This document shows, one piece after another, positions 13,167 to 32,303 of a stretch of 64,000 nt of DNA. The DNA is from Pedobacter sp. SYP-B3415. GTDB taxonomy: Bacteria > Bacteroidota > Bacteroidia > Sphingobacteriales > Sphingobacteriaceae. A program made the position numbers and the translations under genes. The stretch's first letter is position 1; every line of letters begins with the position of its first letter. Below the pieces are notes generated by a model, which was not told the DNA's origin, did not search any database, and saw nothing but the letters and a program-made list of their open reading frames with translations. The stretch is from NCBI RefSeq assembly GCF_004138205.1, contig NZ_RXNQ01000011.1:124001-188000 (forward strand). The letters are read 5' to 3'.

Positions 13167-13694
13167 ATGACAAACTCACTGCCTCCGGCATCTTCAGCCG
13201 CCGCCAAGAACTGGTATGTTGTGTACACCTGGCCACGTTGGGAAAAAAAAGTTACAAGATCGTTCGAAATGCATGGCATTACAACCTATTGCCCGCTTCG
13301 AAAGGTAAAAAACCAGTGGGCAGACCGCGTAAAAGAAGTAGAATTACCGCTTTTTCCGAGTTACGTATTCATCCACATCAGCATGAAAGAAGAGCTGAAG
13401 GTAAGAAGCACGCTGGGTGTGGTAAACTTCGTCTACCATGTCGGGAAGCCGGCAAAGGTATCTGAAGAGGTGATCGAACAGGTGAGACATTACCTCAGGA
13501 AGTTTCCCGAAGCAGAGGTTGTTTCTTACCAGGTTTTCGGTGCAGGTGACCGTGTTCGTGTTAAATCCGGCCTGATGACGGATAAAGAGGGAGAGGTGAT
13601 CCGTATCCAGGGCAAACACGTTCTCGTTGTGATTGATAGTTTATCATGTGCGCTGGTCTCGAAGTTGCCAGCTTCATCGCTTGCACTTGTGTAG
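13167..13694 (+). CDS. UpxY-family transcription antiterminator (NusG-like)
   Basis: The 175-residue protein is a NusG paralogue. It has an NGN domain (about residues 10-110: KNWYVVYTWPRWEKKV, FPSYVFIHI, VVNFVYHVGKPAKV) and a KOW-containing C-terminal domain (about 120-170: AGDRVRVKSGLMTDKEGEVI). Specialised NusG proteins of this type let RNA polymerase read through long surface-polysaccharide operons. In Bacteroides the gene usually stands first; here it is third, after the Wza- and Wzc-like genes, and a 248-base structured gap precedes it. That placement suggests it serves the long downstream block of glycosyltransferase genes. Confidence 0.92.
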   Translation: MTNSLPPASSAAAKNWYVVYTWPRWEKKVTRSFEMHGITTYCPLRKVKNQWADRVKEVELPLFPSYVFIHISMKEELKVRSTLGVVNFVYHVGKPAKVSEEVIEQVRHYLRKFPEAEVVSYQVFGAGDRVRVKSGLMTDKEGEVIRIQGKHVLVVIDSLSCALVSKLPASSLALV

Positions 13695-13736: not shown

Positions 13737-15179
13737 ATGAGCTTAAAAGAAAAGACCCTTGCTGCCCTGGCCTGGGCGTTCAGTCAGCAGATCAGTGCGC
13801 AGGTCATTAACCTGGTTGTCAATATTTTACTGGCACGCATGCTGATGCCGGCCGCCTTTGGTATGATAGCCATGTTAACGGTCTTTATACAGGTGGCAAC
13901 CAGTTTATTAGATAGTGGACTCACGTCATCGTTGATCAGGGATACAGATGCCGGACAGGATGATTACTCTACAGTCTTTTTCTTTAACCTGGGCGGCGGA
14001 ATTATCGCCTATTCGTTTGTCTTCATGATAGCTCCGGCCGTTCAGGATTTTTACCACCAGGCTGGTCTGGCCGATGTGCTTAGGGTTTATGCGCTCGTTT
14101 TTGTGATCAACGCCCTGTTCAGCGTACAGAATGCCCGGCTGACCGCACAGATGAATTTCAAAATCCAACTGCTGATGCATATCCCCTCTGTAGCAGGGGC
14201 AGGTCTGCTCGGTTTGCTGTTGGCGTATCTCGGATTTGGTGTCTGGAGCCTTGTCTGGATGAACCTGTTTCTCGCGCTGTCGCTGGCCGTGCTTCACTGG
14301 ACTTTTTCCGCCTGGCGCCCGTCCTGGGTTTTCAGCATGGCATGTTTCAGAAAACACTTCAGGTTCGGCTACAAAATGACCCTGACCGGCTTGCTCGAAA
14401 TTCTTTACCGGAATTTATACGTGCTTCTGATCGGAAAGTATTACAGCGCTGCGCAACTCGGTTATTATGCGCGGGCCGATTCACTTAGCCAGCTGCCTGT
14501 TGTAACCGTTTCTACGGTAATCGGGAAAGTTACCTATCCCATGTTTTCAGGTATTCAATCTGATAACCTGCGTCTGAAGCAATTGTACCGGAAGATCATG
14601 CAACAGGTCCTTTTTTGGAACGCGCCGGTACTGATCTGCCTTACGCTGATTGCCGAGCCCTTGCTTGTATTACTTCTCACAGAGAAGTGGTTGCCGGCCG
14701 TACCATACTTTCAAATCCTGGCCCTGGCCGGGATTATGTACCCGCTGCATGCCTATAACCTGAATATTCTGAAGGTAAAGGGAAGAAGCGATTTGATTCT
14801 CCGGCTGGAAGTCATTAAAAAACTGGTATCGGTGGGTGGTATTGCCGTGGCACTTCCATTCGGTATTTATGGCCTGCTGTTTTTTCAGCTTGCATTCAGC
14901 TTTCTCGGCTACGGGATAAATTCCATGTACAGCGGGCGGCTTATCGGTTATCCGGCCAAAGAACAGATCGCAGATATGCTGCCGTCATTTGCTTCTTCAG
15001 GGCTTAGTGCGGCCGTCTGCATGCTGGCCGCACCCTACATGTATCCGCAACTGAGCGGTTCGCCGATGCTCCATATCATCTATACCGCAAGCCTGTTTTT
15101 TCTCGCTTACGGAGTGGTCAGCGCCGCATTCAGAGTACAGCCCGCTATTGATCTGAAAAACCTAATCTTAAAAAAATGA
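13737..15179 (+). CDS. Wzx-type oligosaccharide flippase (MOP superfamily)
   Basis: The 480-residue integral membrane protein has about 14 hydrophobic segments and the N-terminal amphipathic start of the MviN/Wzx group (LKEKTLAALAWAFSQQ). An internal AQLGYYARADSLSQLP motif is typical of polysaccharide-biosynthesis flippases. It would move lipid-linked repeat units across the inner membrane for assembly by the polymerase at 21316. Its stop overlaps the next ATG (ATGA at 15176-15179), so translation is coupled to the aminotransferase gene. Confidence 0.9.
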   Translation: MSLKEKTLAALAWAFSQQISAQVINLVVNILLARMLMPAAFGMIAMLTVFIQVATSLLDSGLTSSLIRDTDAGQDDYSTVFFFNLGGGIIAYSFVFMIAPAVQDFYHQAGLADVLRVYALVFVINALFSVQNARLTAQMNFKIQLLMHIPSVAGAGLLGLLLAYLGFGVWSLVWMNLFLALSLAVLHWTFSAWRPSWVFSMACFRKHFRFGYKMTLTGLLEILYRNLYVLLIGKYYSAAQLGYYARADSLSQLPVVTVSTVIGKVTYPMFSGIQSDNLRLKQLYRKIMQQVLFWNAPVLICLTLIAEPLLVLLLTEKWLPAVPYFQILALAGIMYPLHAYNLNILKVKGRSDLILRLEVIKKLVSVGGIAVALPFGIYGLLFFQLAFSFLGYGINSMYSGRLIGYPAKEQIADMLPSFASSGLSAAVCMLAAPYMYPQLSGSPMLHIIYTASLFFLAYGVVSAAFRVQPAIDLKNLILKK

Positions 15180-21315: not shown

Positions 21316-22539
21316 ATGAAATTGTTAACTGTCTTTTTTGTCTGTCTTTATTTGTATGCGCTCTCGCTTGGCGTGTTCATGACAGAGCTTTTCAGACTGC
21401 CTGCCCCCTTGCTATTCTATCTTCCACTCGTTTTCCTCTTTAAGGCACACCATGAGCGGGTCGGCGGTTACAGCAGAGAAGTGATGCTGCTTGGTATCAG
21501 TTCCTTTCTGTTTTATGCCGTAGGCCTGTCAGACCTTACGGCGTTTATTGCGAACTCCTTATGTATGGTACTGTGTGCGGCCTACTTCTATTATTTTGTC
21601 GCATCTGAGCCCGGACGTCTTAACCAGGGTATGATTATATTTTTCAGCCTGCTGGCATTTTCAGGCTTGATTCTGGTCCTGAACCACTTTCTCGGGGCAA
21701 GCATTGACAGGCTGCGCGAGCAGATCCTGGGCGAACAGGTCATGCAAAGCCCCTCCGGACTTTCGAAAAGCCAGTTTGCTTTCGGTTATCAGCTTGCAGC
21801 ATTCTGCACCATGATCTTCGTGGCTGCCGTTGTTTTTAAGCAGAATCTGCTGGTGAAGCTGCTGGCCTTTGCTGTCTGTCTTGGCTTACTGTTTCTTGGC
21901 ATGCAGCGCTCAGCTTTTGTTGCATTTGCATGTTGCACAACACTTTTTCTGGTAGCCTACTACCGTTTCCGAGCCGTTTTTGCGCTTGCGTTGATGCTGC
22001 TTATCTGTTACGGCATTTATCATTTTTATCTGCAATACCAATTGGATGGGGTAGAGAACATCATTACAAAAAATGAGCACAACGATGCTACCTATAACAG
22101 GTCATCACTATCTGGCGAAAACCTCCGTATTTATCTTGATTACCCTTACGGGCTCATTTTTTACGGGAAAAATTGGGCAGATGTCATTTACCGCAACCAG
22201 GTTTTTTCTTCGGGCGTTACCTCGCACAATGCCTATCTGATGTTCCTGACCTATCTGGGGCCGTTTCTCGGTCTGGGTTTGCTTGGGCTGATTTACAGGC
22301 AGCCTGTAAAGATCTTTTTCTACGTTCTGCGGAACATACGGCAACCGGGTAACGCGCTGCTCATTTGTTTGAGCTTTGCCTTTCTGGCCACCTCCGTAAA
22401 TGCGCTTTCTCACAATCCCTGGCTTATCAGCAGTGATGGTCCGACGCTTTTTCTGTATTTCGCGCTACTGCATACCTGGGCGCTCAGGCAGGAGCAGGTA
22501 GCTGCGGCCTCACACTCTTCAGCATTTGTGTATGCTTAG
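21316..22539 (+). CDS. Wzy-like O-antigen/polysaccharide polymerase
   Basis: The 407-residue integral membrane protein has about ten to twelve hydrophobic segments and a large periplasmic loop (about residues 240-300) after a QLAAFC/GMQRSAF segment. The loop includes the SSLSGENLRIYLDYPYG and TSHNAYLMFLTYLG region; an SHN(A/S)YL motif before a membrane helix is characteristic of the O-antigen ligase/polymerase superfamily. It would join repeat units in the periplasm after flipping by the protein at 13737. No second polymerase is present in the window. Confidence 0.85.
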   Translation: MKLLTVFFVCLYLYALSLGVFMTELFRLPAPLLFYLPLVFLFKAHHERVGGYSREVMLLGISSFLFYAVGLSDLTAFIANSLCMVLCAAYFYYFVASEPGRLNQGMIIFFSLLAFSGLILVLNHFLGASIDRLREQILGEQVMQSPSGLSKSQFAFGYQLAAFCTMIFVAAVVFKQNLLVKLLAFAVCLGLLFLGMQRSAFVAFACCTTLFLVAYYRFRAVFALALMLLICYGIYHFYLQYQLDGVENIITKNEHNDATYNRSSLSGENLRIYLDYPYGLIFYGKNWADVIYRNQVFSSGVTSHNAYLMFLTYLGPFLGLGLLGLIYRQPVKIFFYVLRNIRQPGNALLICLSFAFLATSVNALSHNPWLISSDGPTLFLYFALLHTWALRQEQVAAASHSSAFVYA

Positions 22540-23641
22540 GTTAAAAATTGTCCATATTATCGGCTCGCTGACACGCGGCGGCGCCGAGCGGCTTGTTGTC
22601 GATCTTTGTAACGAGCTGAGCCTTTCTGGCGGGAACGAGATCATCATCGTGTCACTCAATGCCAATGCGGAGCAGGCCACATTTGTTGCAGACATTAACC
22701 CGAGGGTCAGATATGTCAGTTTCAACAAACAAGCCGGCTTTAGTTTGCGGGTGCTGTTAAACCTGAACCGCTGGCTGCGCCGCGAGCGACCTGATGTGGT
22801 TCATTCTCATCTCAATGCGTTTGAATACCTGTATCCCTATCTTCTGACCGGCCGCCGCGCGGGATTTCTACATACCGTTCACAATGTTGCCCATGAAGAA
22901 TGTCCGTCCAGAGCGGTCAAGGCGCTCAGATCGGTTTTCTATCGCATCGGCCGGGTAAAGCCGGTTACCATTTCCCAGAACGGACGCATGTCTTTCAGAA
23001 GCTATTACGGCCTTACAGGTGATCAGCTTATTGAAAATGGCTGCAAATCGGTTGCAGCCAGTAATGCCGGGTCCCTGCTGCGCGAAAAGTATCAAAGCTC
23101 TTCCAACACCAGGCTGCTGCTGCATGTTGGGCGGCTGGCGCCGGAAAAGAACCAGGAAATGCTGATACGCGTTGTGAAACGGTTCAACCGCGAGGAGCGG
23201 ATCAAATGCCGGCTGCTGATCATCGGCGAAGTGCACGATAAAGCTCTTGCGGGCAGGCTTACAGCGCTTGCAGGAAACGATGAAGCGATCGAGTTCCTTG
23301 GCGGACGAGCAGATGTAGCCGATTTCCTTTCCGTCGCAGATATCTTTTGCCTGCCTAGCCTGTATGAGGGCATGCCTATCTCATTGCTCGAAGCAATGTC
23401 TGCCGGCTGTATACCCGTATGCAGCCCTGCCGGGGGAATGAGCGAGATGATCGATCATGGCTTCAACGGATTTCTTAGCAGCGAAATAACAGAAGAGGCT
23501 TATTATCAGGCACTCAGATGTGCTGTTTACACACGGGAAACTGCGGCGCTTAAAGAACGCATTCGCAGTACATTCAGTTCCAGATACCACATCACCATTA
23601 CAGCCCGGAAACACGAGCTGCTGTATAAGCAATTGATTTGA
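22532..23641 (+). CDS. Family 4 glycosyltransferase
   Basis: The ATG at 22532 (MLRLKIVHIIGSLTRGG) overlaps the polymerase gene by eight bases; an upstream TTG at 22526 is less likely. The 369-residue GT-B enzyme has the LTRGGAERLVVDL loop (about 12-24), a VGRLAPEKNQEMLIR strand opening the second domain and the SLYEGMPISLLEAMSAG donor-binding signature (about 280-296). It is a typical GT4 enzyme and would add one residue of the repeat unit. Confidence 0.92.
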   Translation: MLRLKIVHIIGSLTRGGAERLVVDLCNELSLSGGNEIIIVSLNANAEQATFVADINPRVRYVSFNKQAGFSLRVLLNLNRWLRRERPDVVHSHLNAFEYLYPYLLTGRRAGFLHTVHNVAHEECPSRAVKALRSVFYRIGRVKPVTISQNGRMSFRSYYGLTGDQLIENGCKSVAASNAGSLLREKYQSSSNTRLLLHVGRLAPEKNQEMLIRVVKRFNREERIKCRLLIIGEVHDKALAGRLTALAGNDEAIEFLGGRADVADFLSVADIFCLPSLYEGMPISLLEAMSAGCIPVCSPAGGMSEMIDHGFNGFLSSEITEEAYYQALRCAVYTRETAALKERIRSTFSSRYHITITARKHELLYKQLI

Positions 23642-23674: not shown

Positions 23675-24880
23675 ATGATTGATTTTACACCGGCCGAACG
23701 CCGGATTGTCCGGAAAATGGAAAGGCTGAAGGCCGAAGCAGGTTCGCATTCGCCCAGTATATTTACGCTTCGCCAGAAGCTGAGCGAGGTTGAGATCAGG
23801 GTTGACGCCTGTTTTCTGTCAAATCCCTATGCTACCGAGCTTTTTATCGAATATTTCAACCGCGAGATCCTGGAGACCGGCCGGATGCGCGACCTGATGG
23901 AGTGTTATCCCTCGCAAAACCAGGTGATTGCAGAAACGCTCGCTGAGTTTCTTCGGGTTGATCGCAGGAACATCTTTATCGGGAACGGGGCCATAGAAAT
24001 TATCCAGGCCGTGATTCACAACTTTACGAAAAGGAAGGTGATCATCAATATCCCTACGTTTTCAAGTTACTACGAGTACGTGAAGGATGGCGTTGAGGTC
24101 ATATACAATGTGCTCCATAAGGAAGATAATTATGAGCTTGATGTAGACAGCTACATCGATCTGGTGAAAGAACACAGACCCGATACGATTGTGCTTATCA
24201 ATCCGAATAATCCCAACGGCGCTTATACGCGTGTATCGGCTATCCGGAGAATCCTCGAGGAAGTTCCGTTTGTAGACCAGGTTATTGTAGACGAAAGTTT
24301 TATTCATTTTGCTTATGAAGACGATACGTACGGACTGATGTCGCTGAGCCACCTGGCCGCAGAATATCCTAACCTTGTCGTAGTTAAAAGCATGTCAAAA
24401 GATTTTGGCGTTGCCGGCATCAGGGCGGGTTACGGTATCATGTCTGAAAGCCGGGTGCAAAGTCTGCTGCGTAACGGTTATCTATGGAATTCGAATGGTC
24501 TGGCAGAATATTTTTTCAGGCTTTATGCAAGGGCAGATTTCGCTTTTCGTTATGAAGAAGTTCGGGTCAAGTATATCCTGGAAAACCTGCAGTTTATCGA
24601 ACAGCTGAAACAGGTTGAAGGCATCAAGGTATACCCAAGTATGGCAAATTTTGTGCTTATCGAACTTCCTGCCGGCATCAGGTCGGCAGATTTTGTTGCC
24701 AAACTGCTTATAACATACGGAATCTACGTCCGCGTGTGCGATGACAAAATTGGCCTTGACGGTCAGTTTATCAGGCTGGCATCACGCTCAAGTACAGAAA
24801 ACAGGTATATTCTTCAAAGCATCAATGCCTGCCTCAACTTTACGCTGACAAAAGAACTTGTTAATGAACAGGTTGATTAA
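23675..24880 (+). CDS. HisC-like class I/II aminotransferase
   Basis: The 401-residue PLP enzyme belongs to the aspartate-aminotransferase fold, closest to histidinol-phosphate aminotransferase and threonine-phosphate decarboxylase. Motifs: GNGAIEIIQAVI (cofactor phosphate), INPNNPNG, DESFIHF and the Schiff-base lysine K242 in KSMSKDFGVAGIRAGYG. The N-terminal 70 residues carry an unusual basic helical extension and replace the normal NENPYGP-type opening with FLSNPYATELFIEYF. No histidine-biosynthesis gene is nearby. It overlaps the HAD gene by 17 bases, and an ATP-grasp gene follows, so it most likely makes or activates an amino-containing substituent for the polysaccharide. That role is inference. 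Confidence 0.85.
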   Translation: MIDFTPAERRIVRKMERLKAEAGSHSPSIFTLRQKLSEVEIRVDACFLSNPYATELFIEYFNREILETGRMRDLMECYPSQNQVIAETLAEFLRVDRRNIFIGNGAIEIIQAVIHNFTKRKVIINIPTFSSYYEYVKDGVEVIYNVLHKEDNYELDVDSYIDLVKEHRPDTIVLINPNNPNGAYTRVSAIRRILEEVPFVDQVIVDESFIHFAYEDDTYGLMSLSHLAAEYPNLVVVKSMSKDFGVAGIRAGYGIMSESRVQSLLRNGYLWNSNGLAEYFFRLYARADFAFRYEEVRVKYILENLQFIEQLKQVEGIKVYPSMANFVLIELPAGIRSADFVAKLLITYGIYVRVCDDKIGLDGQFIRLASRSSTENRYILQSINACLNFTLTKELVNEQVD

Positions 24881-25409
24881 AAACCTGATCGTTCGATCGG
24901 TGGGGCAGTTTTTCTCCTTGCAGCTGCACGCTGCCTTAAGCCGCCGGCCGGCTTCAGACACGGTACATGTCGTAGATATTGACAATACGCTTGCTCATAC
25001 CTGGCCATCCCTCTGCGACGGTTATTGCCGCAGCGAAATGAAACGGTATGAATCGCTGTCAATCTTCAGAGGCATGCGTGATCACATCCTGGCACAGGCT
25101 GCTGCGGGTCACAGCATTATTTTTGTTTCAGCGCGCAGCTACGACTGCTATTTTCTAACCCGGCGCTGGCTGCGCGACTGCGGTGTGCCTTTTGACCAGT
25201 TGATCCTGGTTTATCATGTAAAAGAAAAGCTCGACTTTATCAATCTGCTGTTAAAAAAAGGGAAGAAAGTCGTGTACATTGATGACCTGAGTTACAACCA
25301 TGAGGCTGGCGAGACCAAATTTTATGAAGACACGATCCGTCGTGTAAAACAACTGCCTATCCGGTACATCGGCGCCGCCGAGATCGAACAAATCAATTAC
25401 CCATCTTAA
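24864..25409 (+). CDS. HAD-superfamily hydrolase
   Basis: The 181-residue protein starts at ATG 24864, 17 bases inside the preceding gene. HAD motifs are complete: motif I VDIDNTLAHTW (two Asp), motif II IIFVSAR, a lysine in HVKEKLDFI for motif III and motif IV VVYIDDLS. There is almost no cap insertion, as in small C0 phosphatases acting on large or flexible substrates. The first 30 residues are basic and hydrophobic. It is wedged between the HisC-like and ATP-grasp genes and could dephosphorylate the product of the aminotransferase. Substrate unknown. Confidence 0.82.
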   Translation: MNRLIKNLIVRSVGQFFSLQLHAALSRRPASDTVHVVDIDNTLAHTWPSLCDGYCRSEMKRYESLSIFRGMRDHILAQAAAGHSIIFVSARSYDCYFLTRRWLRDCGVPFDQLILVYHVKEKLDFINLLLKKGKKVVYIDDLSYNHEAGETKFYEDTIRRVKQLPIRYIGAAEIEQINYPS

Positions 25410-25415
25410 AAACCA

Positions 25416-26486
25416 ATGATTAAAATTCTGAAGAGGTGCTGGCGCATTGCTGCCATCATCAGGCTTATTGATTGGCGCGGATTTTTCAAGCATCACCATA
25501 CAGACGCCCGTATCTTGCTGTGGATTCCAAAAATGTCGCTGAAATATTTTGGCAGCGACGCGCTGATCTGGGACATGGCTACACTCGCTGCTTTGATCCG
25601 CCAGAAAAAGCCGTTCAAAATCGTAACCGGCAGGAAGATAGGGCGCTACCATCGCAAAAAAATCTTCTTTTCGCTGAGCCTTACGTATAATATTTATGGT
25701 TTTGCCAACCATACAGCTGTACTTGAACACATCGCCACGCAGCTTGAAAGACAGGGAAACCGGATCTTTCCGTCCAAACACGAACTGTCTTTCTGGGAAA
25801 ATAAGGCCCGCATGCACGAAGCCTTCAGAGCTGCGGGTGTTCATGAACCACTGTCGCAGATCTGCACAAATCCCGTTGCGCTGCTTGCTGATCACCCGCC
25901 ATTTCCCTTTCTGATCAAGAGCGAACATTCGTGTGCATCCCAGGGGCTGTACAAAATTGAATCGACCGAACAGCTCATCAACCTGGTCAAAGACAAACAG
26001 TTTATGCGCGAGAATAAAACCGTCATTGTACAGGAACTGATCAATATGCGCCGCGATCTGCGTGTTATTCTTGTTGGCAATGAGGTTGTTTCGCATTACT
26101 GGCGTATCAACCTGGCCAAAGAGTGGAAACCAACGGCAACGAGCAAAGGCAGCCGGGTCGACTTTGATAACTTTCCTGAAAAGTGGCGCCAGCACATTCA
26201 GGATACTTTCGCCTCACTGAAGCTTACTACCGGTGCGTTTGATATTACCTGGCAGAACGATGATCTGGACACCCTTCCGCTTTATCTTGAAGTGAGCCCA
26301 TTTTATCAGCCGAATCCCAGAATGAAGGCATGTCAAAAACCTTATTCAAATTACAAAACCGGGCTGCAGTTAAAAAAATCCTGGGATGTAGCCTACGTCA
26401 GGCTGGTTTTTGCCATCAAAGAAAAACAGGTGGCGCAGTATCTGAAACGCCCGTCATTTTCGAAAGAATTAAGTCCGGCCATCTGA
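25416..26486 (+). CDS. ATP-grasp domain ligase, RimK-like
   Basis: The 356-residue protein has an ATP-grasp core over about residues 120-305. Visible elements are the NKARMHEAFRAAGVHEP helix, the ATP lysine in FPFLIKSEHSCASQG, the adenine-hinge strand IVQELINMRRDLRVILVG, and the metal-binding end GAFDITW ... PLYLEVSPFYQPNP. The LEVSP-F-QPN ending replaces the usual LEVNPxPG. ATP-grasp enzymes of this kind join a carboxylate to an amine through an acyl phosphate. In this locus it may couple an amino acid or other acid to a sugar amine, but the substrates cannot be read. It is four bases upstream of a GT4 gene. Confidence 0.75.
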   Translation: MIKILKRCWRIAAIIRLIDWRGFFKHHHTDARILLWIPKMSLKYFGSDALIWDMATLAALIRQKKPFKIVTGRKIGRYHRKKIFFSLSLTYNIYGFANHTAVLEHIATQLERQGNRIFPSKHELSFWENKARMHEAFRAAGVHEPLSQICTNPVALLADHPPFPFLIKSEHSCASQGLYKIESTEQLINLVKDKQFMRENKTVIVQELINMRRDLRVILVGNEVVSHYWRINLAKEWKPTATSKGSRVDFDNFPEKWRQHIQDTFASLKLTTGAFDITWQNDDLDTLPLYLEVSPFYQPNPRMKACQKPYSNYKTGLQLKKSWDVAYVRLVFAIKEKQVAQYLKRPSFSKELSPAI

Positions 26487-26489
26487 GTT

Positions 26490-27566
26490 ATGGAACAGTT
26501 AAAACGTATTCTGTTCCTCACGCCTTCTATGAGCAAGGGTGGGGCAGAGACACAATTGCTGAAACTGGCGCGCTTTCTCGCCGCCGCCGGACACCAGGTT
26601 CATATCATATCGCTCAAGCCCATTAATGAGTTTGAAGGACTTCCGCCAGGCAGTCATTTGAAGATCAGCTACCTGCGCGACTGGAATGGAAACGGCCTGA
26701 GGAATATCAGAAAGCTTGTAGCCATCTGCACAACCTTTAAACCCGACCTGGTGGTGGCTTTCATGTTTGTGGCCATCATTTTTGCGCGGATTCTTAAAAT
26801 GAAGTTTCCATTTAAACTGATTTCGAGCATCAGAATCTCCACCATTCAAAGTAAATGGAAACTTATGTTCAGGCTTACTGCCAAGTTTGATGATGCGGTC
26901 GTGTACAATTCTCAGGCTTCCCGGATCAATTTTGAAAGCCGCGGACTGGCCAGGAAGAATGGCATCGTCATACACAACGGAATCGCCTTACCTGAGATGC
27001 CTGTTAATTCTGACGGTCATACGATCTTTCGCTGGGTTTGTATTGCGCATCTGCGATGGAATAAAGACTATAAAACGCTCTTCAGGGCCATCGCACTGCT
27101 CAGACATATGCCGTTTAAGGTCTGTATTGTCGGCGATCTGGACAAGGCATCGTGGCCGCGGCAAATGATCTGTGAGCTGGGCATCACAGATCATGTCGAG
27201 CTGCTCGGATTTAAAAAAGATGCGGTTTCGGTGCTGCAGGGCGCGCAGGCCTTTGTGCTGTCATCAATTTCAGAAGGTATGCCCAATGCGCTGCTCGAAG
27301 CCATGGCCTACGGATGTCCTGTTGTCGCGACCGACATTGACGGGATCCGCGAACTCGTCGGGCCTGCAGGCTGCGGCTTTCTGAGCGCACCCGGCAATGA
27401 GCATCACCTGGCAGCCTGTATGGAAATGATGATGCAGTTAAGCCCCGCCGAACGGAGCCGTAAAGGGCTTCTGGGCAGGTCTTTCATCGAGAACAACTTC
27501 GAGGACCAGAAAATCATGGCTGACTGGATGCAGCTTATCAACTCTACTTCACTACACCACAAATAA
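26490..27566 (+). CDS. Family 4 glycosyltransferase
   Basis: The 358-residue GT-B enzyme has the SMSKGGAETQLLKLA loop (about 13-27), the second-domain strand AHLRWNKDYKTLFRAI (about 188) and the SSISEGMPNALLEAMAYGCP donor signature (about 254-273). All three are normal for GT4. The ATG follows the ATP-grasp stop by three bases, and the next gene (AsnB-like) begins two bases after its stop, so it lies in the same coupled run. Confidence 0.92.
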   Translation: MEQLKRILFLTPSMSKGGAETQLLKLARFLAAAGHQVHIISLKPINEFEGLPPGSHLKISYLRDWNGNGLRNIRKLVAICTTFKPDLVVAFMFVAIIFARILKMKFPFKLISSIRISTIQSKWKLMFRLTAKFDDAVVYNSQASRINFESRGLARKNGIVIHNGIALPEMPVNSDGHTIFRWVCIAHLRWNKDYKTLFRAIALLRHMPFKVCIVGDLDKASWPRQMICELGITDHVELLGFKKDAVSVLQGAQAFVLSSISEGMPNALLEAMAYGCPVVATDIDGIRELVGPAGCGFLSAPGNEHHLAACMEMMMQLSPAERSRKGLLGRSFIENNFEDQKIMADWMQLINSTSLHHK

Positions 27567-27567
27567 T

Positions 27568-29442
27568 ATGTGCGGAATTTTCGGAACCCTGAATCACCAG
27601 GGAGAACTAGATGCTTCTGTTGTTTTCGACGGTCTGCGTCATCGCGGACCTGATCAGCAGGACAGCCTCATAATCGATACGCTGAAACTTTATCATACCC
27701 GGCTTGCCATCCAGGATCTGAGCAGTACAGGCAGACAGCCCATGGCATACAAGGACCTGTACATCGTTTTTAATGGCGAGATATACAATCACATGCAGCT
27801 GCGTACCAGGTATCAGCTGAAAGCGGCCTCAAATTCAGACACGCTCACCATTCTGATGTTGTACGAACGGCTCGGCATGGCAATGCTTGCTGAGTTTGAC
27901 GGCATGTTTGCCTTTGCACTTTATGACCGGAAAAACGGAAGGCTGTTTTTTGCCCGGGACCGTGCAGGTAAAAAGCCGCTGTACCTGTACAGGGATGCCG
28001 GCATGCTGGCCTTCTCATCTGAACTCAGCCTGCTCAACACAATTTTCAGCCCCGAGCCGGATCTTTCATCCTTGTCTGCCTATCTGTATCTCGGGCACCA
28101 TTACCGTAGAGCTGTCCCTTACCGTAAGGTTACGGAACTTGAAAACGGGCATTATCTGCAGATTGATACGCACAACGGCACAGAAAAACAGGTAAGCTGG
28201 TTTTCAATCGAGGAACGTTATCAGGTTCAGACCCGGCTGCCCCTGGGTGATGCACTTGCCCGGGTCGATGCGCTGCTGCAAACAGCGGTTGCAAGCAGAA
28301 TGACCAGCTCGGATCTTCAGGTCGGCTGTTTTTTAAGCGGCGGAATAGATAGCGGCCTGGTTACAGCGATGGCTGCAAAACATACAGACCGTCTCAAGAC
28401 CTTTACAGTTAAGATGGCGGGCGGCTTTGATGAGTCTGAGCTCGCGGGCAAGGTGGCACGGCGGTACGACACAGATCATACTACCATCGAGATCGACTTC
28501 TCTGATCTGGCAAATGATATTGAAATGATCATTGCCAACTATGGTGAGCCGACGTCAGACAATTCGGTCATTCCAAGTTATTATGTTGCAAGGGAAGCAG
28601 GCAAACATGTGCGTGTGGTATTGAACGGGGATGGTGCAGATGAACTTTTCGGCGGCTATCGCCGGTACGTCCCATTCAGGTATGTAGACTTTTTCCGCTC
28701 CGGTTCCCTGGCTGCCGGTACGTCGAAATTACTTAGTACCCTGCTGCCGGTAGCCCATCAGAAACAAAGCAATTATACCTATCTGTACAGGCTGCTTGAA
28801 TTCAGTGCCAAAAGGGATCCCCTGCAGGTCTTCGCATCAGCAGGAGCCGACCTGATGAACGGGTTTGAAGAGTGGTTTATCTGTCCGCCTGCGTTGGCCG
28901 CCATTCGCGCCGACCTGGAACGCGTAAACCGCCTGAGTATCTCACCGTTGAAAAAGATGCTGCTGATGGATTTTCAGTCCATGCTGTTCGGCCGCCTGCT
29001 GCCCAAAATGGATATCGCCACAATGGCTCATTCTCTCGAAGGCCGCAGCCCTTTTTTATCAGACGGCTTGCTGAGATTCGTACCCGGAATAAATGATGCT
29101 CATAAAATTTCCGGACTTGAAACAAAAGTTATCCTCCGCCGCCTGGCTGAAAAATACTTACCCGCCGAACTGGTGCACCAGCCAAAGCGCGGCTTCGAGA
29201 TTCCGCTTGCCGACTGGGTAGACGGGCAGCTCAGGGAAATAATCGGCGATTACCTCGGTTCGGCCTCAACCCTTTATAAATCGCTGATCTCTGAAAGATT
29301 TGTAAGGGACCTGATGGCCAGGAAACTGCGCATCTCTGACCAGCGCAGGGCAAAGATCTTATTTGCTGTCTTCAGCCTCGAAGTATGGAACAAACAAAGA
29401 ACGAAAAAACCTACACATAAACCTCAAATCGTACACGCATGA
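27568..29442 (+). CDS. asnB: AsnB-like glutamine-dependent amidotransferase
   Basis: The 624-residue protein has an N-terminal glutaminase domain with the exposed catalytic Cys (MCGIFG, C2) and a synthetase domain with the PP-loop LSGGIDSGL (about 255). The NGDGADELFGGYRRY segment is also conserved. In primary metabolism this makes asparagine; in O-antigen and capsule loci AsnB homologues (WbpS type) amidate uronic acids. Its stop overlaps the start of the uronate epimerase gene by four bases, and it is embedded among glycosyltransferase genes, so uronamide formation is the better guess. The sequence alone does not separate the two functions. Confidence 0.9.
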   Translation: MCGIFGTLNHQGELDASVVFDGLRHRGPDQQDSLIIDTLKLYHTRLAIQDLSSTGRQPMAYKDLYIVFNGEIYNHMQLRTRYQLKAASNSDTLTILMLYERLGMAMLAEFDGMFAFALYDRKNGRLFFARDRAGKKPLYLYRDAGMLAFSSELSLLNTIFSPEPDLSSLSAYLYLGHHYRRAVPYRKVTELENGHYLQIDTHNGTEKQVSWFSIEERYQVQTRLPLGDALARVDALLQTAVASRMTSSDLQVGCFLSGGIDSGLVTAMAAKHTDRLKTFTVKMAGGFDESELAGKVARRYDTDHTTIEIDFSDLANDIEMIIANYGEPTSDNSVIPSYYVAREAGKHVRVVLNGDGADELFGGYRRYVPFRYVDFFRSGSLAAGTSKLLSTLLPVAHQKQSNYTYLYRLLEFSAKRDPLQVFASAGADLMNGFEEWFICPPALAAIRADLERVNRLSISPLKKMLLMDFQSMLFGRLLPKMDIATMAHSLEGRSPFLSDGLLRFVPGINDAHKISGLETKVILRRLAEKYLPAELVHQPKRGFEIPLADWVDGQLREIIGDYLGSASTLYKSLISERFVRDLMARKLRISDQRRAKILFAVFSLEVWNKQRTKKPTHKPQIVHA

Positions 29443-30533
29443 GCAAAATTCTTGTAACCGGCGCTGCCGGCTTTATCGGCTTCCATCTTGTCCAGGCCTT
29501 GCTGGCCCAGGGCGACGAGGTTGTTGGAATCGACAATCTCAATGATTATTATGATGTGAGCCTGAAACATGCGCGGCTGCAGCAATCGGGAATCAGCGTG
29601 CTCGGCCTTGCACCCGGAAGACAGATGTTAAGCGTTACCAATCCTGCTTACCGCTTTATCCAGTTAGATCTTACCGACAAATCAGGGCTCGAAAAGCTGT
29701 TTTATGAGGAAGGTTTTGAAAAGGTTTGTAACCTGGCAGCCCAGGCCGGGGTGCGTTACAGCCTGACAAATCCCGCAGCGTACATCGACTCAAACATCAG
29801 CGGTTTTCTGAATATACTCGAGAACTGCAGGCACTTCAGAATTGGTCATCTTGTCTATGCAAGTTCGTCGAGCGTATATGGTCTGAATAAAAAGTTTCCG
29901 TTTGCGGTTGAAGATGAAGCTGTCCATCCGGTTTCACTCTACGCCGCATCTAAAAAAAGCAACGAACTGATGGCGCATACCTACAGCCATGTGTTCGGTC
30001 TTCCAACAAGTGGCCTTCGTTTCTTTACTGTATACGGACCCTGGGGAAGGCCGGATATGGCGCTGTACCTGTTCACAAAAGCGATGCTTGAAAACAAAAG
30101 CTTTGACGTCTACAACTATGGGCAGATGAAACGCGACTTTACTTATATAGATGATATCGTCTCGGGTATTGTTAATGTGCTGGAGGCGCCGGCCACGCCC
30201 AATGCTTTCTGGGATCCGCTGCAGCCTGATCCCGCTTCTTCAAGCGCACCGTTCCGTATACACAACCTGGGCCGCGGCTCATCTGTAAGTCTGATGGAGT
30301 TTATCTCTGAAATTGAACAGAATACCGGTATAAAAGCAAAAATGAATATGCTGCCCATGCAGGATGGTGATGTGGAAGAAACCTGTGCAGATGTGGGAAC
30401 AATTGCACGAAGACTGGGTTACGCGCCATCCGTTTCTGTAGCCGAGGGTGTGAGGAAATTCGTTGAATGGTACATTGCGTATTATGGTCCGCAGTTACCC
30501 GCAGCGCTCGAGGAACGCTCGGCTGCGAGTTAA
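29439..30533 (+). CDS. NAD-dependent UDP-glucuronate 4-epimerase-like enzyme
   Basis: The 364-residue SDR enzyme has the NAD loop TGAAGFIGFHLV (about 7-18), the NLAAQAGVRYS motif, the catalytic serine in YASSSSVYG and the YxxxK pair in YAASKKSNELM. AGVRYS and the RFFTVYGPWGRPDMA segment are typical of UDP-glucuronate 4-epimerases of the Cap1J/GAE group rather than of GalE. It would make UDP-galacturonate for the polymer. It is coupled to the AsnB-like gene and closes the first block of the operon; 399 non-coding bases follow. Confidence 0.9.
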   Translation: MSKILVTGAAGFIGFHLVQALLAQGDEVVGIDNLNDYYDVSLKHARLQQSGISVLGLAPGRQMLSVTNPAYRFIQLDLTDKSGLEKLFYEEGFEKVCNLAAQAGVRYSLTNPAAYIDSNISGFLNILENCRHFRIGHLVYASSSSVYGLNKKFPFAVEDEAVHPVSLYAASKKSNELMAHTYSHVFGLPTSGLRFFTVYGPWGRPDMALYLFTKAMLENKSFDVYNYGQMKRDFTYIDDIVSGIVNVLEAPATPNAFWDPLQPDPASSSAPFRIHNLGRGSSVSLMEFISEIEQNTGIKAKMNMLPMQDGDVEETCADVGTIARRLGYAPSVSVAEGVRKFVEWYIAYYGPQLPAALEERSAAS

Positions 30534-30876: not shown

Positions 30877-30930
30877 TCAAATAGTGTACCAAAACGAAAT
30901 ACGCATTCGTTAGGGCTGTATACTATTTGA
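30877..30930 (+). promoter_or_regulatory. Nested dyad element immediately upstream of the lyase start
   Basis: Outer arms TCAAATAGTGTA (30877-30888) and TATACTATTTGA (30919-30930) pair over 12 bases with one mismatch. Inside them AACGAA (30893-30898) pairs with TTCGTT (30906-30911). The two dyads are nearly concentric, and the structure ends two bases before the ATG at 30933. It could be an operator for a dimeric regulator or an RNA fold that hides the start codon. Confidence 0.5.
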
Positions 30931-30932
30931 AC

Positions 30933-32303
30933 ATGAAGAACAAACAAACTACCAAATCAATTCTGATGAATTCGTTTTTAGTACTGGCTATGCTGGCTAC
31001 GGCAAGCTGCGAAAAAGACAAGATCGATCCTGTTGCTGAATCGCCCGTGATTTACAGCAAACAAAGTGCGGCCAATGAGCAGGCCGGCATGCTGGTCATT
31101 GATACAAGACGTGTCATTGCTGAGGCAGGCAACGCCTTCAAACTTCACAATATAGGTGAAACCGGCGATTCGCCCGCCGATACAGACGCCTCAAGTATGC
31201 GTCTGTTTGAAGACGGGGTGGAAATAGGACCTGCGCATACCAACCATGACCAGATTCGCCGAAACGGCGGCGGCCGTTTTAGTCACTGGCAGGGTGAACT
31301 GTTTTTTAGTTCATCAGACAACAGCGACCCGCGCACAAATGGCAGAACGTACACGTACCAGCTGCACAGGCAAGCTACAAGTGCCGCGCCGGGGCTTGGT
31401 GCACTTATCCCATTGCCGCTGACAGGCCCGATCGGCTACGCGGCAATGAATGGGATGACAACCGGCGGGCTAGGCGGCCCGGTAGTCACCGTCAGAAGCC
31501 TGAACGAACTTAGAAATGCCCTGGAGTCTGCTCAAAGGTTGATTATACGCATCCAGGGAAATATAAGCGGTTCAGGTTTTCTGAATGTGAAATCAAATAA
31601 AACGATCCAGGGTGTGGCGGGTTCCGTCATCGACGGCGTCGGATTATTGATCTATGGTGCCAATAACATCATCATCCAGAATGTGACCATAAGAAATGTG
31701 GTTGGCTACTCCAACATCATGATTAAAGAAGATGCCCATCATGTCTGGGTAGACCATTGTGATCTTTCGTCAGACCGCGATCATGGCTGGGAATATTATG
31801 ACGGGTTGCTCGACATTGGCAAACGCGCTGATTTTGTGAGCGTCTCGTGGAACCGGTTTCATGATAACCACATCCCCATGCTGATCGGTTTTGATGACCG
31901 CAACACCGATGATGAGGGCCACCTGCGTGTCAGCGTATATAACAACTATTTTTATAATGTATCTGAACGTCAGCCAAGTGTGCGCTTTGGAACCGTACAT
32001 TGTTTCAACAACTACCACAGGAATGGTAGCGGTTATGCAGTAGGCGCCACGATGAATGCGACAGTGCGTACTGATAACAACTACTATGAAAACCAGAAGG
32101 AACCGATCAAGACAAATTTCAATGCGAGACCGGGTTATGTGAGCGGTACTGAAACAAATATTTACAAAAACAGCGGGCAAAACCGCATCACTACCTCGGC
32201 TTCGTCGTGGACTCCGCCTTACAGCATCCGCGATCTGCTGAACACAGCAAATCTCCTGCCTTCACTCATCCCTGCTTCAGCGGGCGCTACGTTAATTCTG
32301 TAG
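30933..32303 (+). CDS. Pectate-lyase-like polysaccharide lyase (PL1-type), lipoprotein
   Basis: The 456-residue precursor starts at MKNKQTTK (ATG 30933; an upstream TTG at 30927 is less likely) and has a lipobox near MLATASC. After an N-terminal region of about 160 residues lies a right-handed beta-helix of the PL1 type. Visible marks are IRIQGNISGSG, VDHCDLSSDRDHGW (the calcium/WIDH-like motif) and a late VRFGTVHCFNNYHRN segment with the catalytic-arginine region. PL1 enzymes cut polygalacturonate by beta-elimination. Being located inside a locus with a uronate epimerase, it may trim the bacterium's own polymer. It stands alone between non-coding regions, with a hairpin terminator after it. 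Confidence 0.85.
   Translation: MKNKQTTKSILMNSFLVLAMLATASCEKDKIDPVAESPVIYSKQSAANEQAGMLVIDTRRVIAEAGNAFKLHNIGETGDSPADTDASSMRLFEDGVEIGPAHTNHDQIRRNGGGRFSHWQGELFFSSSDNSDPRTNGRTYTYQLHRQATSAAPGLGALIPLPLTGPIGYAAMNGMTTGGLGGPVVTVRSLNELRNALESAQRLIIRIQGNISGSGFLNVKSNKTIQGVAGSVIDGVGLLIYGANNIIIQNVTIRNVVGYSNIMIKEDAHHVWVDHCDLSSDRDHGWEYYDGLLDIGKRADFVSVSWNRFHDNHIPMLIGFDDRNTDDEGHLRVSVYNNYFYNVSERQPSVRFGTVHCFNNYHRNGSGYAVGATMNATVRTDNNYYENQKEPIKTNFNARPGYVSGTETNIYKNSGQNRITTSASSWTPPYSIRDLLNTANLLPSLIPASAGATLIL

Follow-up and report, generated by a model that had tools for sequence, protein, structure and literature searches.

What do three genes singled out as not standard for repeat-unit synthesis contribute to a polysaccharide locus of Pedobacter sp. 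SYP-B3415? The question arises from a 64,000-nucleotide stretch of this genome (the window), for which an earlier note, made from the letters alone, had described a coupled unit of an aminotransferase-like enzyme, a HAD protein and an ATP-grasp ligase. The observation holds: the genes are real, contiguous and coupled, forming one run on the + strand (23675-26486). We favour, with moderate confidence, a reading in which they decorate a uronic acid in the polysaccharide with ethanolamine, bound as an amide, with ligation followed by likely phosphate removal. The support comes from the layout of the genes, their co-occurrence, their conserved catalytic residues, the predicted folds, and loci in which single parts are replaced.

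The proposed pathway and its genomic setting

In the first step of the proposed pathway, L-serine-O-phosphate would be decarboxylated to phosphoethanolamine by a SMUL_1544-type decarboxylase-like protein (23675..24880, + strand, 401 aa), a PLP-dependent enzyme with a conserved N-terminal extension (AGSHSPS...DACFLSNPY). In the second step, a RimK/LysX-like ATP-grasp amide ligase candidate (25416..26486, + strand, 356 aa, E-x-S metal-site motif) would use ATP to activate the carboxylate of a uronic acid and join the amine to it as an amide, and a small HAD phosphatase-like protein of the DxD type (24864..25409, + strand, 181 aa) would then likely strip the phosphate. By analogy with Campylobacter jejuni, the acceptor would be a uronic acid provided via a UDP-uronate epimerase, and this is probably either galacturonic or glucuronic acid.

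The decarboxylase and HAD genes overlap by 17 nt, and the HAD and ligase genes are separated by 6 nt. A further 3 nt separate the ligase gene from a GT4 glycosyltransferase gene (26490..27566, + strand, assigned by Pfam), which continues the run and keeps its position in 9/9 same-genus loci, while another GT4 gene (22526-23641) precedes the cassette. Downstream lie an AsnB-like glutamine amidotransferase (27568..29442, + strand; TIGR01536, 378 bits against a cut-off of 267.1), whose product may be a primary uronamide, and an SDR epimerase (29439..30533, + strand), most likely a UDP-glucuronate 4-epimerase. The latter matches PDB 5u4q (460 bits) and 6zl6 (158 bits), structures whose depositors' names are other or general, and it is from family motifs that we take it to be a UDP-GlcA 4-epimerase. 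A lipoprotein-like pectate lyase homologue (30927..32303, + strand; PF00544, 106 bits) stands beside it.

The surrounding locus carries export, flippase, glycosyltransferase, DegT aminotransferase, sugar-phosphate transferase and polymerase-like genes, together with a Polysacc_synt_2 (4,6-dehydratase-like) gene and acetyltransferase-like genes. Among these are a Wzx-type flippase (13737..15179, + strand; PF13440, 292 bits) and a Wzy/O-antigen-ligase-like membrane protein (21316..22539, + strand; PF04932, 26.7 bits, under the cut-off of 31.7).

The decarboxylase-like enzyme

The top Pfam match of the 23675 protein is the class I/II aminotransferase family. Its best structural match is SMUL_1544 of Sulfurospirillum multivorans (PDB 6oux), which scores 410 bits over residues 11-387 compared with 103 bits for the second-best structure, and the two proteins are 47% identical over 388 aligned positions, N-terminal extension included. 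SMUL_1544 is named by NCBI as a norcobamide biosynthesis serine-O-phosphate decarboxylase, and its N-terminus matters for phosphoserine conversion. Among the best 120 of 2,916 database matches to the window enzyme, K242, D206, R367 and R371 are invariant (120/120); from knowledge of the family, we take K242 to be the PLP lysine and the other three to be active-site residues. The N-terminal motif (AGSHSPS and DACFLSNPY) is also conserved, 15 of its 16 positions being kept in at least 115 of these 120 sequences, which marks the extension as a trait of the SMUL_1544-type family. Most of the 120 are nameless, and Campylobacter is absent from the names that are given.

The earlier description of this enzyme as HisC- or threonine-phosphate-decarboxylase-like with an N-terminal extension survives in its second half only. 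With the HisC model TIGR01141 the protein scores 162.5 bits, 114 short of the equivalog cut-off of 276.55, and with the CobD threonine-phosphate decarboxylase model TIGR01140 it scores 158 bits, 132 short of the cut-off of 290.55. By the best evidence, it is closest to the serine-O-phosphate decarboxylase rather than to either of these enzymes, and its predicted product is likely phosphoethanolamine.

Whole-length similarity, the N-terminal extension and the PLP site are thus common to SMUL_1544 and the window enzyme, whereas the genomic setting differs. The window enzyme is encoded in a polysaccharide locus, and CbiB has no match in the window genome (as a control, the family was detected in 8 of 14 genomes). 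A norcobamide role was therefore set aside, and the phosphoethanolamine is probably used elsewhere, for which the polysaccharide locus is the obvious candidate.

The candidate ligase and phosphatase

The predicted fold of the 25416 protein is that of ATP-grasp enzymes, and the carboxylate-amine ligases LysX and ArgX are nearest, in a search that barely tested the first 30 residues. The metal-binding motif of RimK is E-x-N. In the window ligase it is replaced by E-x-S, with E292 and S294, as it is in 120/120 of the best 120 of its 343 database relatives, which bears out the earlier description of a RimK-like protein with a modified metal motif. Since the usual Asn metal ligand is missing, the chemistry of the ligase could differ. 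Compared with RimK, LysX and ArgX, it is also longer at the N-terminus, by a largely helical segment of about 30 residues. Membership of the RimK family of alpha-L-glutamate ligases was rejected both on this motif and on the subfamily score (TIGR00768, 48.3 bits against a cut-off of 143.4), and membership of the TupA-like (Cj1438C type) family was rejected because PF14305 has no match at E 0.01 among 28 ligase-family members scanned. Where the best 120 relatives carry names, these are hypothetical, ATP-grasp or RimK-type; the closest named relative among the matches listed is from Pedobacter yulinensis (69%).

The HAD protein was correctly recognised in the earlier note. Its catalytic motifs (DxD, S/T, K and DD) are those of HAD superfamily phosphatases and are kept in 33-34 of the 34 listed relatives. 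It has no match at E 0.01 to the HAD-IB models TIGR01490 and TIGR01488, and its BLASTP similarity to a HAD-IB phosphatase from another decarboxylase genome (G304) is not significant. The predicted model (pLDDT 82, from 17 sequences) gives middling structural matches.

A precedent in Campylobacter jejuni

The logic of such a pathway is already known from the HS:2 capsule of C. jejuni, contrary to the earlier claim of a new substituent pathway. Three papers (PMC12409886, PMC11800379, PMC11800397) describe conversion of phosphoserine to phosphoethanolamine by Cj1436. The C-terminal, TupA-like ATP-grasp domain of Cj1438 (Cj1438C), a proven uronic-acid amidoligase, then couples this product, or serinol phosphate, to glucuronic acid at its C6 carboxylate. 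According to the same papers, dephosphorylation falls to the HAD protein Cj1435, which acts on the amide product; C. jejuni makes both amides, and Cj1437 is a transaminase. The chemistry predicted for the window resembles the HS:2 and HS:19 amidation in its formation of phosphoethanolamine from phosphoserine, its ATP-dependent uronic-acid amide and its HAD phosphatase, Cj1435, Cj1436 and Cj1437 being likened to the window proteins by their described functions.

As in C. jejuni, a decarboxylase, an acid-amine ligase type and a HAD protein are thus found together in a polysaccharide locus. The ligases differ: that of C. jejuni is a TupA-like domain fused to a GT2 domain, whereas that of the window is a stand-alone RimK/LysX-like ATP-grasp protein, which is analogous to Cj1438C and belongs to a different subfamily. 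What looks new here is the use of a RimK-like family of ligases with an E-x-S motif for such a reaction, together with the exchangeability of the cassettes described below. The HAD subgroup also looks new in such a role; it appears distinct from the HAD-IB phosphatases of the exchanged cassettes. In the literature searched, mainly outside subscription journals, neither this Bacteroidota cassette nor an ethanolamide in the polymer of a Pedobacter was the subject of any paper, which is weak evidence of absence.

Distribution of the cassette

A set of 118 genomes was searched, comprising the window's own and relatives that come mostly from its genus and class. Strong matches to the ligase number 11, and another four are weak (E 9e-5 or worse). 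The HAD protein has strong matches in exactly the same 11 genomes and weak ones in two others, and the decarboxylase is found in these 11 and in two more (G103 and G048). Nine of the 10 other genomes with the trio belong to the same genus, and nearly the whole locus is common to them over 20 kb; one otherwise shared same-genus locus (L023) has no match to the 20234 gene. Because nearly the entire polysaccharide locus is conserved among them, these nine are not independent witnesses. In G108, the trio sits in a polysaccharide locus unlike that of the window.

A scan of named genomes identified 27 loci, 13 from Pedobacter and 14 from elsewhere. Following the check proposed in the earlier note, the same three-gene order was sought among them: all three genes are present in 22/27 loci, and they are contiguous and in the same order in 18/27. 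In 23/27, the ligase gene is preceded by the HAD gene at a distance of no more than about 260 bases. In four loci (L042, L045, L046 and L055) the decarboxylase gene is one to a few kilobases off, on the opposite strand in L042 and L046. Two contigs of less than 7 kb yield partial cassettes, one starting at the ligase gene with the decarboxylase absent from the stretch (L037) and one with only the HAD and ligase genes (L044); L048, on a contig that is not this short, likewise has the HAD and ligase genes without the decarboxylase, and a 3.7-kb contig (L052) has the ligase gene alone. Four records (L091, L092, L093 and L025) appear identical to L050, L041, L049 and L051, so that the two surveys overlap. 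Chance adjacency of the three genes was set aside on the basis of these counts and the co-occurrence in the 118 genomes.

The cassette is rare. In a sample of the phylum, the ligase was found in one of 395 genomes, the window's own, and the decarboxylase in 2/395 genomes of the phylum and 7/395 of the class, in scans that scored four to five candidates per genome and may therefore overstate the rarity. In 12 chosen loci of the 22 complete ones (two of the 12 from Pedobacter), the distances of the genes correlate (Spearman 0.67-0.75); this shows no more than joint inheritance, for which species history would suffice, and it is not counted here as an argument. The ligase of G014 is intact, the flagged in-frame TAA being its own stop codon at the end of the match.

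Exchange of parts between cassettes

Several loci carry the cassette with a part replaced. In Flavipsychrobacter (L053), a HisC-like enzyme, a HAD-IB phosphatase and a window-type ligase are encoded in a row, the HisC-like enzyme scoring 280.7 bits (above the hisC cut-off of 276.55) and being only distantly related to the window decarboxylase. In G103 and G304, a PaaK-like adenylate-forming enzyme, a SMUL_1544-type decarboxylase and a HAD-IB phosphatase stand in a row. These cassettes share with that of the window the decarboxylase family, whose gene has those of a HAD phosphatase and of an enzyme of an acid-activating kind as neighbours, and differ from it in the adenylate-forming enzyme and in the HAD-IB phosphatase. 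L042 has a PaaK-like gene beside the decarboxylase gene, in addition to the window-type HAD and ligase genes. In G669, the decarboxylase and a HAD-IB phosphatase are followed by a TupA-like ATP-grasp protein (PF14305, 138.7 bits against a cut-off of 25); by analogy, the window ligase thus fills the slot of a subfamily that includes a proven uronic-acid amidoligase.

Outside the genus, the decarboxylase was found in seven genomes (G103, G108, G304, G520, G543, G555 and G669), and a HAD gene of either type adjoins it in all seven, four of which appear identical to named loci already counted. Within the genus, a decarboxylase relative in G048 (41% identity) adjoins a gene for a MobA-like nucleotidyltransferase, and no such HAD or ligase gene lies in the 19 kb scanned there. 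The presence of the decarboxylase is therefore not enough to predict an amide. The relative is intact, the two flagged TGA codons being its own stop codons at the end of the match.

We put at about even chances a broader reading of these arrangements, in which one phosphoserine decarboxylase would serve as the base of interchangeable ethanolamine-decoration cassettes for acidic surface polysaccharides, with at least three ligase types (E-x-S RimK-like, TupA-like and PaaK-like) and two HAD subgroups swapped, and in which the RimK-like family would be a previously unassigned class of polysaccharide amidoligases that take a phosphorylated amine. The exchanged cassettes offer a natural experiment on the fixed step, the phosphorylated amine. 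The proposal extends the C. jejuni pathway and gives a testable function to the ligase family and to a large aminotransferase-like family; from genes alone, it predicts that Bacteroidota carry an amide that takes away charge from acidic sugars of their surface, and it provides candidate enzymes for producing amide-modified polysaccharides.

Alternative readings and the acceptor sugar

The earlier note had proposed a unit that makes an amine, removes phosphate and then forms an amide. The unit itself is supported by co-occurrence and by the exchange of parts, while its order is not: by the C. jejuni analogy, removal of phosphate probably comes last. An order in which the HAD protein first frees ethanolamine from phosphoethanolamine for the ligase is considered unlikely. 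It would agree with the HAD and ligase genes being the tightest pair in the named loci, from which the order of reactions cannot be told, and it runs against the case of C. jejuni, where the amine is still phosphorylated when the ligase uses it and the amide is the substrate of the phosphatase. The 23675 protein might instead be a transaminase, for example one converting dihydroxyacetone phosphate to serinol phosphate, so that a serinol (or other) amide would be formed. Such an activity has parallels in Cj1437 and the second C. jejuni amide, and in Flavipsychrobacter, where a ligase of the same family accompanies a HisC-like enzyme, but the full-length similarity to SMUL_1544, extension included, and the gap between the two best structural scores make it quite improbable. 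Attachment of phosphoethanolamine as a phosphodiester via a nucleotide-activated form, with the ligase and phosphatase unrelated, is suggested by the nucleotidyltransferase gene in G048; none of that kind was found among the window genes scanned near the cassette, the ligase and HAD genes accompany the decarboxylase gene in 11/11 genomes, and we regard this reading as highly improbable.

The acceptor is the least certain part of the explanation. The ligase could target an acid other than a uronic acid, such as an acyl group or amino acid carried by an amino sugar that the locus makes, and the DegT, Polysacc_synt_2 and acetyltransferase-like genes do make acylamino sugars likely. Outside Pedobacter, moreover, only 4/14 loci (L041, L042, L048 and L051) have a match to an epimerase or a UDP-sugar dehydrogenase near the cassette, that in L051 being strong and the other three modest (51-130 bits). 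Against this stand the uronic acid that the C. jejuni counterpart uses as acceptor and the epimerase and pectate lyase homologue that adjoin the Pedobacter cassette; overall, a different acid is judged rather unlikely. For the favoured uronic acid acceptor, the epimerase is the likely source, and the pectate lyase homologue beside it hints at a uronic acid in the polymer. The epimerase gene is near the cassette in 13/13 named Pedobacter loci, and the pectate lyase homologue is present in 11/13, the contigs of the other two ending first. A candidate UDP-glucose dehydrogenase-type gene is located elsewhere in the window genome, which is congeneric with the Pedobacter genomes compared, on another contig.

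Related cassettes in other genomes

Besides the trio of decarboxylase-like, HAD and RimK/LysX-like ATP-grasp genes, relatives of the first gene occur with other ligase types. A PaaK-like adenylate-forming gene adjoins a SMUL_1544-type decarboxylase in three loci from other genomes (L070, 6305-9467; L086, 4593-7710; L042, 3678-6155), accompanied in the first two by a HAD-IB gene, and this pairing constitutes a putative second type of amidation cassette. In a Bacteroidota genome, decarboxylase, HAD-IB and TupA-like ATP-grasp genes are consecutive (L094, 7483-10257), the arrangement closest to the C. jejuni capsule enzymes. A distant but intact relative of the first gene (41%) adjoins a MobA-like nucleotidyltransferase gene (L071, 8993-10866), where the same phosphorylated amine as in the cassette may feed a different, nucleotide-activated route.

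Cassette genes are also carried by three short contigs of 3.7-6.5 kb (L044, L052 and L054). Binning assigned these contigs to Anaerolineae, Microthrixaceae and Acidimicrobiaceae; they are more likely misbinned Bacteroidota DNA than products of transfer.

Neighboring genes in the polysaccharide locus

The locus starts with a NusG-like gene (13167-13694), possibly an antiterminator serving the long gene run. Within it, an AsnB-like amidotransferase (27568-29442), with homologs in several further trio loci (L046, L047 and L051), may form a second, primary amide on uronic acids. A pectate lyase homolog with a lipoprotein-like start (30927-32303), which adjoins the epimerase gene in Pedobacter loci, is possibly a polymer-trimming enzyme of the same locus.
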